Assembly (NCBI GenBank): GCA_937868095.1
Contig: CALMLO010000036.1
Location: 62,001-126,000, forward strand
From: an uncultured Phycisphaerales bacterium
Lineage (GTDB): Bacteria; Planctomycetota; Phycisphaerae; Sedimentisphaerales; Anaerohalosphaeraceae
Direction: 5' to 3'
Length of the DNA stretch: 64,000 nucleotides
Under the pieces are notes generated by a model. It saw nothing but the letters and a program-made list of their open reading frames with translations, was not told where the DNA came from and did no database searches. Below are positions 30,258 to 35,759 of this stretch, in pieces. How positions within the stretch are numbered: position 1 is the stretch's first letter; the number at the start of each line of letters is the position of its first letter. Both the position numbers and the translations under genes were made by a program.

Positions 30258-31928
30258 TTACATTGTTTTATACTTCGGCCCGCCGCCCGGCTCCGGACAT
30301 CGCCAGCGGATATTGTCGAAAGGGCACTTCCGCTGGCAGGTTTTGCAGTGCAGGCAATTGGATGGATTGGCCGGCTTGACAACCCCCTGAACGGATTCAT
30401 AAACGCCCGCCGGACAAAAAGTGATGCACGGTGCACCAAAAACCGGCATGCACTTCTCCTGACAGACCTGCGGCTCACGAATCGTCAAATGACAGGGCTG
30501 CTCTTCCCGATGGGAAGTCCCGGCCACAGCTGTAAAGGTGTCCTTGTCGAACCGCACGGCCGGCTTGAGCCGGTAGCGCTGGCGGCGCATCGCACGATAA
30601 TCCGGCTCAACCGCAAAAGCAGGCAGCCAATCCCCCAAAACCGACAGCGGAAACCCCTGCAGCGGCCCGAATTTAGCCACCGTCTGGCGAAAGTTCTTGG
30701 CAGACTCCATTTCCTTGAAAACGCCGTGTTCTTCCAGCAGGCGGGTATAACTGCAAGCAGTTCCGGCCGGCGTGTCCAGATTCTCAGCGGCGGCTTCTGC
30801 GGCAGCCAGACCCGAATAAATGGCATTGTGAATCCCTTTAATCTTGAGCATATTCACGAAGCCGGCGCTGTCCCCCAGCAGACATACATTGCTGCGGCCT
30901 ACCGCCCCTGTCTGCGGGCAGCGCGGCAGGGCATAAAGGCCGCCTTCCGGAATCATTTTGGCTCCGCCTTCAACCACCTTGCCGCCCTCAATGAATCGCC
31001 GCACCCACCGATGCTGCTTAAAAAGCGTCAGCGCATCCTGCGGATTAAAATCAAAATAGGGATAATCCAGCCCGACAATCATCCCCACGGCAATCTGCTC
31101 AGAACCCATCGGATACATAATCCCGCCGCCGAACATTCCCGGCCCGAGCAGCGGCGTCCAAAGGGGATAGCCCATTGCGTGCACAACCCGCCCGCTTCCG
31201 AATGCTTCATATTGCTGCGGCGAAACCTTAATCAGTTCCTTCACCCCCAGCGAGAACAGCTGCGGACTTCGTCGCCTCAGACCGGCCTTTTGAACCAATT
31301 GTTCAGCCAGCTGCCCGTCGCATCCTTCCGCAATCAGCAAAACACGAGCCGGCACAATTTCCCCCGGCAGAAAGTTCGGCTGCGGATGCCCTTCCTTATC
31401 CAGTCCCTGGTCTGTCAGCCGCACGCCTTCGGCCAGCTGTGTTTCAGGATTCCAGAGGATTTCGCCGGCTGCAAAACCGTGCATTACCTCTACCCCCATC
31501 GTTCGGGCTGCCTCGCACAGCCGCGCCGTCAGCCGGCTCAGCGAGCAAATCCAGTCGCCCCGATGCCCCATTTGACCGAAGGCCAGACCCATCTTTTCAG
31601 CCGCAAGCACCGCCGGCAGGATTTTAACAGCCCCATACTTTCCCGCCAGAAAGAGCAAATCATCCCGCTGAACCTGCCCGATCAGAATCTTTTTGGCTTG
31701 TTCGCTTTCTTTCCAGTTCGGCTCGATGGGGTTCAGCAGATCTTCGAGGGCTTCCGGCTCGATGACTGCACCGGATAGATTATGCTGTCCGCCGCCGGCG
31801 GCCTTGTCGATGACAACCACATCCAGTTCCGGCCGTTTCTGTTTGAGCCGGATAGCCGCCGACAAGCCCGCCGGCCCGGCCCCGACAATCAGAACAGAAA
31901 CAGGATTTGCCCGCGGAATTGTGCTCAT
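30258..31928 (-). CDS. Electron-transfer flavoprotein:quinone oxidoreductase (FixC-like, with fused ferredoxin tail)
   Basis: Passes electrons from reduced ETF to the quinone pool at the membrane. The 556-residue protein opens with an FAD-binding Rossmann motif VLIVGAGPAGLSAA and a GGGQHNLSGAVIEP segment, and ends with a ferredoxin-like region: cysteines in CMPVFGAPC, ITFCPAG, and NCLHCKTCQRKCPFDNI, sufficient for a 4Fe-4S cluster, followed by WRCPEPGGGP. The ATG at 31928 overlaps the stop of the fused ETF gene by four bases. It corresponds to FixC and FixX joined in one chain. Whether the pair runs beta-oxidation-type transfer or bifurcation is not readable here. Confidence 0.9.
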   Translation of the reverse strand: MSTIPRANPVSVLIVGAGPAGLSAAIRLKQKRPELDVVVIDKAAGGGQHNLSGAVIEPEALEDLLNPIEPNWKESEQAKKILIGQVQRDDLLFLAGKYGAVKILPAVLAAEKMGLAFGQMGHRGDWICSLSRLTARLCEAARTMGVEVMHGFAAGEILWNPETQLAEGVRLTDQGLDKEGHPQPNFLPGEIVPARVLLIAEGCDGQLAEQLVQKAGLRRRSPQLFSLGVKELIKVSPQQYEAFGSGRVVHAMGYPLWTPLLGPGMFGGGIMYPMGSEQIAVGMIVGLDYPYFDFNPQDALTLFKQHRWVRRFIEGGKVVEGGAKMIPEGGLYALPRCPQTGAVGRSNVCLLGDSAGFVNMLKIKGIHNAIYSGLAAAEAAAENLDTPAGTACSYTRLLEEHGVFKEMESAKNFRQTVAKFGPLQGFPLSVLGDWLPAFAVEPDYRAMRRQRYRLKPAVRFDKDTFTAVAGTSHREEQPCHLTIREPQVCQEKCMPVFGAPCITFCPAGVYESVQGVVKPANPSNCLHCKTCQRKCPFDNIRWRCPEPGGGPKYKTM

Positions 31929-34021
31929 TCCATCGCCCTCAGTTCTTCGGCCAGTTGAGGAATAACATCTTCGGCACTGCCGATAAGATAGTAATCGCAC
32001 TGTTTGAAAATCGGCGCATGGGGGTCGGTATTGATGGCGATAATCGTTTCCGTGTTGGCGATGCCTATCATGTGCTGAATCGCCCCGGAGATGCCCACGG
32101 CAATATACAGTTTCGGCCCGACGGCCGTGCCGGTCTGGCCGACCTGATAAATGCGCTCCGCAAACCCCTGCTCCACCGCCGTGCGGGAGGCGCCCTTTTC
32201 AACCGTAATGGAAAACCGTTCTCTCAGCGCACTGCACAGCATAGTCAGCAGCCGGTCATAATTATCCCGATTCTGCATCCCCTTGCCGCCGCTGACGATG
32301 CACTCGCTGTCAAACCGAACCTGTCCGGTTCCTTTTTCCGTGCGGAGAATTTCCAGCGACAGATCTTTTTCGCTGAGGGATACCGCATGCGGTACAATAG
32401 TCCCCCGACGCAGCGGGTCTTCCGCCAGCCGCTTCATTACCCCGGGACGAGCCGTGGCCATCTGGCAGGGGGAGTCCTTGGTACAGATGGTAGCCATCAC
32501 GTTGCCCCCCAGCGCCGGACGGGTCTGGAAAAGAATGCCAATCTGCTTGCGGCGGCTGCTGTCGCGGATGTCCAGCCCTGTACAGTCCGCTGTCAGCCCG
32601 CAGCCCGTTCGATAAGAAACCATCGGCGCCAAAACCCGCCCCTGCGGCGTAGCGGCAAACAGCACAATCTGCGGACGATACTTTTCAAACACATCTGCAA
32701 TAACCTTTCGCCACGGAAACGGCTCAAACGGCTCCAGCAGCGGATGTTCAATCAGATAAACCTTATCCGCGCCCCCGGCAATCAGCGGCGGCGCCATCGA
32801 GCGGACATTCTTGCCTGCCAGCACGGCCCCGCACTCCACCTCCAGCGAATCCGCCAGTTGACGTGCCTTGCCCAGCAGTTCAAAAACCGCCGGATGAATC
32901 CCCTTTTCATCATGCTCGGCGACCACCCAGACCTCGCCGCTGTAGCTCGGCTGTGTCTGGCGATACCCTTCGAGCATATCCTCGAGCGCCTTCTTGTGAA
33001 AATCCACGCGAGGGTCGGCAAGGATTTTTTCGCAAACCTCCTCCGTGATTTCATCCGGCGAGGAAATATGCAGTTCCTCAAGAATCTGTCGAAGTATCTG
33101 AAAATCAGCGATTTCCTTCTCCGTCCCCTCGAAAGACCGGTCAAAAGGACTCTCCCGCCTTGCCGGCAGCACATAGGCCGGTTTCTTCTCGGTCTTCTGC
33201 TCCTCAGCGGAAGACGTTTGGGAAAGGGCCTGACGAATCACCGCCGCCAGCTCCTTTACCGAAGAAACCGCCCGGCATTTCCGGCTGGTTTTCCCCGGCG
33301 GAAAAACCCGAATCACGCGGGTCTTCGACCCTTCCACCCCTACGGCTTTCGCCTGGATGGTTCGAGCGTCCCATTGAATCAGCGGTATTCGGGATGCTTG
33401 CCGGCTTCTTTCAAAAGAGGCAAACAGCGGATATTCATACTTGGCCGTAGTCAAAACCGCCGGCTTCTGACGCAAACGCACCATCTGGCTGCCGCCGGAA
33501 ATAATCCGCGTAAAAACAAACCGCCCATCCTCATATTCGGCGTCGGTAATATAGGATACACACGGAATCCCCAGTTCTTCGGCAATCTGAGGCGGAACCT
33601 GCGCCGTATCCCCATCCACGGACTGCATCCCCGCCACAATATAGTAATCTTTGGAATGCTTCAGCAGGTCGGATTCAATTTTGCGAATGGCATAGGCCAG
33701 CGGATTGGCGGTAGCCGGCGTATCCGCCCCCCCAAGCGCCCTGTCCGTAAGCAGAATTGCCGTATCGGCACAACGGGCCAGACAATACCGCAGCACCTCC
33801 GCCGCCATAGGCGGCCCCATCGTCAGGGCAATAATGCGCGCCGCTGTATCGCCCGACAGAACCGCCATCCGGCGGGCAAAAGCAAGGGCCTGGGCATCCA
33901 GTTCATTGATAACACTCGGCAGGCGGGTGCGGATCAGGTTGCCTGTATTCGGATCAAACGCATTGTCCGTAATTTGAGAAACATCAGGCACTTGTTTGAC
34001 TAATACGATATAATCGCTCAT
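31925..34021 (-). CDS. Fused electron-transfer flavoprotein, beta and alpha subunits in one chain
   Basis: One 698-residue polypeptide carries both ETF subunits. Residues 1-265 are the beta subunit (SDYIVLVKQVPDVSQI, SVDGDTAQVPPQIAEELGIP at 134-153). Residues about 266-360 form a linker with charged and helical segments. Residues 362-698 are the alpha subunit, with FQTRPALGGN (498-507), SGGKGMQNRDNY, RIYQVGQTGTAVGP, AVGISGAIQH and NTDPHAPIF of the FAD site. I chose the ATG at 34021 (MSDYIVLV); a non-ATG start at 34048 is in frame. It is translationally coupled to the downstream ETF:quinone oxidoreductase. Separate subunits are the rule, so the fusion is notable. Confidence 0.9.
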   Translation of the reverse strand: MSDYIVLVKQVPDVSQITDNAFDPNTGNLIRTRLPSVINELDAQALAFARRMAVLSGDTAARIIALTMGPPMAAEVLRYCLARCADTAILLTDRALGGADTPATANPLAYAIRKIESDLLKHSKDYYIVAGMQSVDGDTAQVPPQIAEELGIPCVSYITDAEYEDGRFVFTRIISGGSQMVRLRQKPAVLTTAKYEYPLFASFERSRQASRIPLIQWDARTIQAKAVGVEGSKTRVIRVFPPGKTSRKCRAVSSVKELAAVIRQALSQTSSAEEQKTEKKPAYVLPARRESPFDRSFEGTEKEIADFQILRQILEELHISSPDEITEEVCEKILADPRVDFHKKALEDMLEGYRQTQPSYSGEVWVVAEHDEKGIHPAVFELLGKARQLADSLEVECGAVLAGKNVRSMAPPLIAGGADKVYLIEHPLLEPFEPFPWRKVIADVFEKYRPQIVLFAATPQGRVLAPMVSYRTGCGLTADCTGLDIRDSSRRKQIGILFQTRPALGGNVMATICTKDSPCQMATARPGVMKRLAEDPLRRGTIVPHAVSLSEKDLSLEILRTEKGTGQVRFDSECIVSGGKGMQNRDNYDRLLTMLCSALRERFSITVEKGASRTAVEQGFAERIYQVGQTGTAVGPKLYIAVGISGAIQHMIGIANTETIIAINTDPHAPIFKQCDYYLIGSAEDVIPQLAEELRAME

Positions 34022-34320
34022 GAATCCCCTGAATCGCCTGGTTCGCAAATTTTTTAAAAAATCCCGCTTATCTTATCAACTTCATCAGACCGGTCAACCA
34101 ATAACAAACCTTTTCGGAGAAATTTTAGATGATAAGGGCATTTTTCAGCAAAAAGCCGCCCGTTGAAAGAGTTTTGGAAAGCCGAGGGTTGAAAGCGGTT
34201 TCGGTTGTGGAAGAATACGGAATACCCATGATTAGGACTATCCTGTTTTTCAACCTTCTATAAGGAAACTTCTTGCTTTTTGGGGAGAAGGAAGGGTGTT
34301 TTTCGGCACTATAATCGAAT

Positions 34321-34340
34321 TGTGGAAAACCTGTGAACAA
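34321..34340 (-). promoter_or_regulatory. Two adjacent near-consensus DnaA boxes
   Basis: TGTGGAAAA (34321-34329) and TGTGAACAA (34332-34340) are on the plus strand; read on the minus strand they are TTTTCCACA and TTGTTCACA, each one base from TTATNCACA. They are two bases apart and share orientation. Confidence 0.4.
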
Positions 34341-34589
34341 ATTGGCCGTGTTTTCGTGTTATCTGGATATATTGGGTTCGGTAATGTGGTTTTTCGTTTT
34401 TACCAAACAGCAAGTGGAAGACAATCCTTGTCGTCTTTTTGGGATATATTTCTTAACTTACTCAATTTTAAGAAGTTATGTTTTGTAATGGATGCAGGGG
34501 GCTTTTTGTACCGACTGGTCTGTATGTATTTGGGTTTTTTTCTGTTTTATATTAAAAACCGAGTTTGCGTTCTAATTTTGTGAATGGAT

Positions 34590-34598
34590 TGTGGATAA
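34590..34598 (-). promoter_or_regulatory. Perfect DnaA box
   Basis: TGTGGATAA on the plus strand is the exact complement of the TTATCCACA consensus. It lies in the same orientation as the pair at 34321-34340, and next to a related TTGTGAATGGA. Confidence 0.5.
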
Positions 34599-34770
34599 CT
34601 TGGTTTCTCTGCGTGTGAGGGGTTCTGTTTTGCTTTGATCTTTCTAACTGTTTCTGTTTTCAAGAGATGGGTGAAAAACAGTCGGAGGAACCTTTCTTGA
34701 CAAGACAAGTTGAGTTTAGTAGAAAGAAACAGAAAATGATACCTCATATTTTTGGATAGGAGATTGTGTT

Positions 34771-35151
34771 ATGGACGAGCAGGGCACAGAAAACCAACAT
34801 CAAACCTTTGCTGAAGGGGGAAGCCCCGTGCTGTCGAAGGATTCGCTGAATCTGGCGATTTTATGTCATCTCCTTGGGATGTTTACGAGTTTTCTTGGAC
34901 CGCTGATTTTGTGGCTGGTCAAAAAAGATGAAGATGAGTACGTGGAGCACCACAGCCGGGAGGCACTGAACTTCCAGATTACGCTACTGCTGGGTTATTA
35001 TGCCGGATGCCTTCTGAGTTTTGTCTGCATTGGGGTTCTTGTCATTCTGGCGGTTTTAGCAATGAATTTTATCTTTTGTCTGACAGCCGCCGTGGCGGCC
35101 TCTAAAGGGCAGCGGTACCAGTACCCATTCTGTCTGCGTCTGGTCAAGTAG
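34771..35151 (+). CDS. DUF4870 domain membrane protein
   Basis: A 126-residue protein with about 35 polar residues followed by three helices. The features LNLAILCHLLGMF, LILWLVKKDEDEYVEHHSREALNFQITL and the closing AAVAASKGQRYQYPFCLRL are those of the DUF4870 (Tic20-like) family, small membrane proteins of unknown role. It is the first plus-strand gene to the right of the candidate origin, with AGGAG before its ATG. The smpB gene follows 110 bp later. Confidence 0.85.
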   Translation: MDEQGTENQHQTFAEGGSPVLSKDSLNLAILCHLLGMFTSFLGPLILWLVKKDEDEYVEHHSREALNFQITLLLGYYAGCLLSFVCIGVLVILAVLAMNFIFCLTAAVAASKGQRYQYPFCLRLVK

Positions 35152-35261: not shown

Positions 35262-35759
35262 ATGATGGGGTCGATGACAAAAGACAAAGGAAAAGAAACT
35301 CATTTGGGCAGCGGGCCTGCTGCGCAGAACAAAAAGGCCTGGCATGAGTATGAAGTGGTTGAGACGCTGGAGGCGGGCATTTCCCTTTTGGGAACAGAAG
35401 TAAAGAGTTTGCGGTGCAAACAGTGTGATCTGGAGGGGGCTTATGCTCGAATTCAGGATGGAGAGTGCTGGCTGATTGGTTGTAAAATTGCTCCTTACTT
35501 GCAAGCGGGGAGGAGCAATCATGAGCCGGAGCGGAAGCGAAAACTTCTGCTGCATCGGGCCCAGATACGAAAACTTCGCAGCAAGCTGGAACAGCGGGGC
35601 TTTACGCTGGTTCCTTTGCGTGTTTATTTTAATGAGCGGGGGATTGCCAAGGTGCAGCTGGGGCTTGCGCAGGGCAAACGAAAGTATGATAAACGGCAGA
35701 AAATCCAGGAGCGGGAACAAAAGCGGGATATGGAACGAAGCCGCAAGAAATTCCGGTAA
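35262..35759 (+). CDS. smpB: SsrA-binding protein
   Basis: Binds tmRNA and delivers it to stalled ribosomes for trans-translation. The protein of about 165 residues has the family core: KKAWHEYEVVETLEAGI, LLGTEVKSLR, NHEPERKRKLLLHRAQI and the C-terminal basic GLAQGKRKYDKRQ tail that enters the mRNA channel. The ATG at 35262 adds a short N-terminal extension; an ATG at 35274 is an alternative. No ssrA gene is seen in the window. It precedes the DUF1844 gene by 35 bp. Confidence 0.95.
   Translation: MMGSMTKDKGKETHLGSGPAAQNKKAWHEYEVVETLEAGISLLGTEVKSLRCKQCDLEGAYARIQDGECWLIGCKIAPYLQAGRSNHEPERKRKLLLHRAQIRKLRSKLEQRGFTLVPLRVYFNERGIAKVQLGLAQGKRKYDKRQKIQEREQKRDMERSRKKFR

Follow-up and report, generated by a model that had tools for sequence, protein, structure and literature searches.

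An ordered array of DnaA-box pairs conserved in an order of Planctomycetota: a candidate DnaA control locus

Introduction

The E. coli loci datA and DARS combine DnaA boxes with sites for other proteins, at conserved spacing and with spacers that are free to change (PMC4585315). datA, DARS1 and DARS2 are non-coding, single-copy loci that lie outside the origin and carry several boxes each; the boxes and their spacing are conserved, and the spacers vary (PMC4585315). In Bacillus subtilis and Streptomyces coelicolor, clusters of DnaA boxes apart from oriC are cited in the same paper as holding back untimely initiation. As regards the Phycisphaerae, no description of oriC or of DnaA control loci was found in the open literature, searched by titles and abstracts (most subscription journals lie outside this scope).

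Here we describe an element from a window of 64,000 nucleotides of the genome of an uncultured Phycisphaerales bacterium. Like datA, DARS1 and DARS2, it is a non-coding, single-copy locus with several boxes at conserved spacing; that it also lies outside oriC is argued from GC skew. Its box arrangement and its flanking genes are different from those of the E. coli loci and, unlike them, it is conserved in an order of Planctomycetota. The likeness is one of logic: no sequence homology is claimed, and IHF and Fis sites are not part of the comparison. A second-protein site may have its counterpart in a conserved inverted repeat between the boxes, whose binder is putative. With the B. subtilis and S. 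coelicolor clusters, as they are cited, the element shares its groups of DnaA boxes; those clusters lie close to oriC, whereas the place of the element is set only relative to dnaA.

The remaining term of comparison is a dnaA-linked oriC, for which the same genome offers a candidate (contig C66, 59.2-59.5 kb). The two have in common tandem or opposed boxes, an 11-bp pitch and an AT-rich intergenic setting. The classical type adjoins dnaA, here with a T-rich run beside the pair, whereas the element has neither dnaA nor dnaN next to it, and its two pairs are separated by an inverted repeat.

Results

The gap that holds the element is the longest intergenic gap of the window, and extends from the start codon of a fused electron transfer flavoprotein (ETF) gene (34021, minus strand) to a DUF4870 gene (34771, plus strand; Table 1). 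The closest ETF proteins among named records are from uncultured Planctomycetota and Phycisphaerae. The genome amounts to 3.04 Mb in 69 contigs, 1.69 Mb (56%) of which were read.

An earlier note had proposed the gap as a chromosomal replication origin, citing DnaA boxes at 34590 and 34321-34340, all in one orientation, and divergent flanking genes; with no dnaA or dnaN adjoining, it would be an origin at a non-classical place. The boxes are present exactly there: the core box TGTGGATAA is a perfect match, and TGTGGAAAA and TGTGAACAA of pair 1 have one mismatch each. In addition, the gap contains a fourth, weaker box, TGTGAATGG, absent from the note, which stands 11 bp before the perfect one, so that there are two tandem pairs of equal pitch. 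The dnaA homologues are indeed elsewhere, on contigs C66 and C32, and dnaN is on C33. Divergence holds for the immediate neighbours, but gene direction beyond them is mixed within a few kb on both sides.

Table 1. Features of the gap and its surroundings (positions in the window).
Feature	Positions	Strand	Remarks
Fused ETF gene	31925..34021	-	Pfam PF01012 twice and PF00766
Gene-free gap	34022..34770	.	749 bp, 62% AT
Interval with genome-specific rearrangement junction	34106..34319	.	Between the end of homology with ETF loci and the first box; skew minimum at 34115
Box pair 1	34321..34340	-	TGTGGAAAA (34321-34329) and TGTGAACAA (34332-34340), 11-bp pitch
Inverted repeat	34454..34480	.	27 bp, TAACTT...AAGTTATG, half-site spacing 19
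Imperfect palindrome	34508..34525	.	GTACCGACTGGTCTGTAT; 188-192 bp after pair 1 in most own-family loci
Box pair 2	34579..34598	-	TGTGAATGG (34579-34587) and core box TGTGGATAA (34590-34598), 11-bp pitch
TTGACA hexamer	34697..34702	+	Within conserved TTCTTGACA; possible -35 box of a DUF4870-smpB transcript
DUF4870 gene	34771..35151	+	PF09685; also right neighbour in G001-G005
smpB	35262..35759	+	PF01668

Chance was estimated from dinucleotide shuffles of the gap itself. At least one perfect box arises in these with P=0.025, and three or more perfect or single-mismatch boxes sharing a strand with P=0.015; two pairs of 11-bp pitch are rarer still (P=0.0015). Over the whole window, boxes with one mismatch number 39 against 28.6 expected, and because this excess is only slight, the boxes alone are weak evidence. 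What makes them convincing as candidate DnaA boxes is their conservation in relatives.

The gap harbours a genuine, ordered element of roughly 290 bp, in which the two tandem pairs flank an inverted repeat placed about midway. The layout of a pair followed by a core box has 29 sites, spread over 28 of the 396 genomes of the class (none of 396 with the reversed control), a count that is a lower bound since the strict pattern misses members. All but one of these sites fall in the own order, in two of its families, and the element occurs about once per genome; in the present genome, the strict tandem pattern has a single match, which is pair 1. In nearly all of the 53 loci collected, the core box lies 248-274 bp after pair 1; the main distances (248, 259-264 and 267-274) are only suggestive of strict helical phasing. 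By an unrestricted search of the interval between pair and core, the inverted repeat was found in register, as regards both its spacing and its distance to the core box, at 35 of the 53 loci and in 24 genera, compared with a mean of 0.5 in shuffles. Because the 53 loci count some sites twice, once for each of two patterns, and include close species of one genus, the 24 genera are the safer figure.

Comparison with close relatives, which the earlier note had suggested, recovered the boxes in the same ordered layout. Pair 1 is kept in all six members of the genus, and in the genus alignment conserved islands stand out from diverged DNA at pair 1, a palindrome-like TACCGACCGGT..GTAT motif, pair 2 and TTGACA. 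This hexamer is present in the own genome and in the relatives G001, G002, G003 and G004; the copy at 34697 was not among the results of a full consensus scan. The imperfect palindrome, which we take to resemble operators of TetR-type regulators, turned up only in the own family. The sister family f7 has the same layout: besides pair 1 there is TAACTT...AAGTTA, again with its half-sites spaced by 19, and a GTGGATAA core stands about 270 bp away from pair 1. When 15 elements were aligned, invariant columns were confined to pair 1, the inverted repeat and the core box. A structured RNA or riboswitch was ruled out, as the gap matched no Rfam family and the element showed 0 covarying pairs.

The genes around the element are less constant. 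To its left, many loci have metF or another gene related to folate, reading away from pair 1; elsewhere this place is taken by DUF4870, and in the present genome by ETF. On the right, there is either thiE, reading towards the element (many genera), or DUF4870-smpB, reading away. The spacing is thus nearly fixed though the flanking genes differ, which argues that the element is not just a neighbour's promoter. ETF adjoins it in the present genome only, and was therefore ruled out as conserved context.

A further feature of the gap, absent from the earlier note, is a switch in GC skew from about -0.11 to +0.22. This jump of +0.33 is the largest in the 1.69 Mb read, the next being +0.22. At four-fold-degenerate sites, the genes of the two strands give -0.27 and -0.23 over the 20 kb to the left, and +0.56 and +0.56 to the right. 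Since the flip is seen on genes of both strands, it points to a replication-linked asymmetry, and a transcription effect was ruled out. A second ground for this is that genes are more numerous on the G-rich strand (489 vs 258), which also has 21 of the 27 tRNAs. Within the window, cumulative skew is lowest at 34115, inside the gap, where the earlier note had proposed looking for the minimum of the complete genome, but this point sits on a rearrangement junction.

This junction emerged from the five genus relatives (G001-G005), in all of which the element lies between metF and DUF4870-smpB. In the present genome, metF is on another contig (C32:134932-137382), and the ETF block occupies its former place; all modules of the element persist despite the separation. 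Homology with the ETF loci of the relatives ends at 34105 and the first box begins at 34321, so that the junction must lie between these positions, where the skew minimum also falls. The metF neighbourhood is ancestral for the element. The product encoded at C32:134932-137382 is a protein of 816 aa, a methylenetetrahydrofolate reductase fused with a pterin-binding domain.

No skew switch at the element was found in G002, G003, G004 and G005, the four relatives with usable flanks, in which metF is in place or close by: in each of them, four-fold-site skew does not change sign across the element on either gene strand (in G003, for example, +0.51/+0.34 on the left and +0.42/+0.30 on the right). 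The metF gene of G002-G004 is itself strongly plus. Among the 14 loci with both sides measurable, a minus-then-plus skew was seen in two, and there was no consistent pattern; at several of the 14, both flanking genes are on one strand, a confounding factor of which the genus comparison is free. One of the two is G001, where the signal is weak and comes from a short contig with a left flank of 2.3 kb. On the coding strand of ETF, the skew is +0.29 in the present genome vs -0.17 to -0.30 in four relatives, as if the gene were now replicated in the opposite direction. Skew is scrambled along the complete genome G010, and rearrangements thus seem common in the clade. GT-rich 13-mers, used as a proxy for skew, were uninformative in G073 and, among the matches listed, scrambled in G010.

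The earlier note had regarded a better box cluster next to dnaA as speaking against an origin in the gap, and a conserved cluster with an AT-rich run does lie directly upstream of dnaA. In the present genome it is the C66 candidate mentioned above, with the order TTNTCCACA; TGTGGATAA and, 11 bp on, NGTNNATAA; a run of T; and TGTGGAAAA. It is found in all six members of the genus. Tandem pairs stand directly upstream of dnaA in 16 of the genomes listed (positions compared by eye), including G010, where the pair is about 0.3 kb before the gene. Skew at this cluster goes from plus to minus in both the present genome and G010, which is the wrong way for an origin, so that the dnaA-upstream cluster is not marked as an origin by skew either. 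The element is far from dnaA, 1.75 Mb in G010 and about 1.2 Mb in G073.

The present genome encodes two DnaA homologues (C66:59470-60927 and C32:130299-131615), both with the ATPase and DNA-binding domains, and at least two matches to the DnaA C-terminal domain occur in most of 107 genomes of the order. A link between the element and the second paralogue was ruled out: two DnaA genes are present order-wide, also in families in which the layout scan found no element, and they do not explain its distribution.

Discussion

The explanation we consider best, and to which we give about an even chance, is that the gap holds a DnaA-bound control element of about 290 bp, present in a single chromosomal copy, and not a replication origin. 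An ordered array that is independent of gene context, with a putative second-protein site and nearly fixed spacing, looks like a DnaA control locus. DnaA, as one or both paralogues, would occupy the pairs as neighbours on the same helical face, and a second protein would bind the inverted repeat and bring the two DnaA groups together; the resulting complex may titrate DnaA or change its nucleotide state, and would thereby adjust initiation at an origin that lies elsewhere, in the manner of E. coli datA and DARS. The marked switch in skew would have arisen from the rearrangement by which the ETF block replaced metF at the left edge of the element. It should be noted that DnaA binding is predicted here from motif likeness only, and that conservation at the level of an order and AT-richness are equally to be expected of an origin.

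A fairly unlikely alternative is that the motifs are DnaA-box-like but bind another protein, with a role in nucleoid structure, partition or looping, and that the element is a chromosome-organizing site. A match to TTATNCACA is lacking in many pairs, whose second nonamers include TGTTGATAA and CGTAGAAAA, and the rigid, nearly symmetric layout with its central inverted repeat suggests a looping complex. However, the core boxes are mostly GTGGATAA, and the similar tandem pairs upstream of dnaA, a region expected to hold DnaA sites, point to DnaA as the binder.

That the element is the chromosomal origin, with DnaA assembling on the pairs and opening the AT-rich DNA between or beside them, seems to us unlikely. 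The observations in its favour are a conserved, ordered cluster of boxes in an AT-rich intergenic region, as is typical of a bacterial oriC, with about one per genome; the largest skew jump of the part read, which lies at the element, goes from minus to plus and involves both gene strands; a skew of ETF that is leading-strand-like here and lagging-like in four relatives; and the weak minus/plus signal of G001. Nevertheless, the jump coincides with a lineage-specific junction, the minus stretch to its left is only about 31 kb long, after which the contig is plus again, and a conserved cluster lies upstream of dnaA. Against it, too, is the same-sign skew of G002-G005, found in the ancestral neighbourhood of the element, where metF is strongly plus (G002-G004). 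The boxes of the earlier note thus stand as real, conserved and ordered, and skew does switch at the gap, whereas the origin role is made less likely by the skew of the relatives and by the junction.

It is very doubtful that the element is the transcription control region of a neighbour (metF or folate genes on the left, DUF4870-smpB on the right), a role that would suit the orientation of the left gene and the TTGACA conserved before DUF4870 in the genus, but not the persistence of all modules after the loss of metF from this place, nor the many genera in which thiE reads towards the element.

A DnaA control locus of this kind, order-wide, precisely bounded and made of defined modules, would lend itself to assays of DnaA binding and to deletion. 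The present case also illustrates that a sharp GC-skew minimum together with DnaA boxes can stem from a rearrangement junction in a scrambled genome; such junctions are a trap for skew-based origin calling. We regard it as most improbable that, in the present species, the rearranged element is an active origin with diverging forks, the left block having already adapted to leftward replication. If it were true that it fires here and that the relatives initiate elsewhere, this would represent a shift of origin, or else a bacterial chromosome with two origins. A third-moment test of sawtooth skew for several origins per chromosome gave P=0.02-0.18 depending on window size, and was weaker without contig C36.

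Some minor observations may be added. Other minus-to-plus jumps, of +0.18 to +0.22, are present at C14:60.8 kb, C14:32.1 kb and C33:21.0 kb. A sharp plus-to-minus jump at C42:10.2 kb marks the end of the block that follows smpB in G002-G004, and is apparently another rearrangement junction. Two copies of the layout were found in genome G412 (contigs C9 and C65), and the one match outside the order is at G156:C59:29677-29955.
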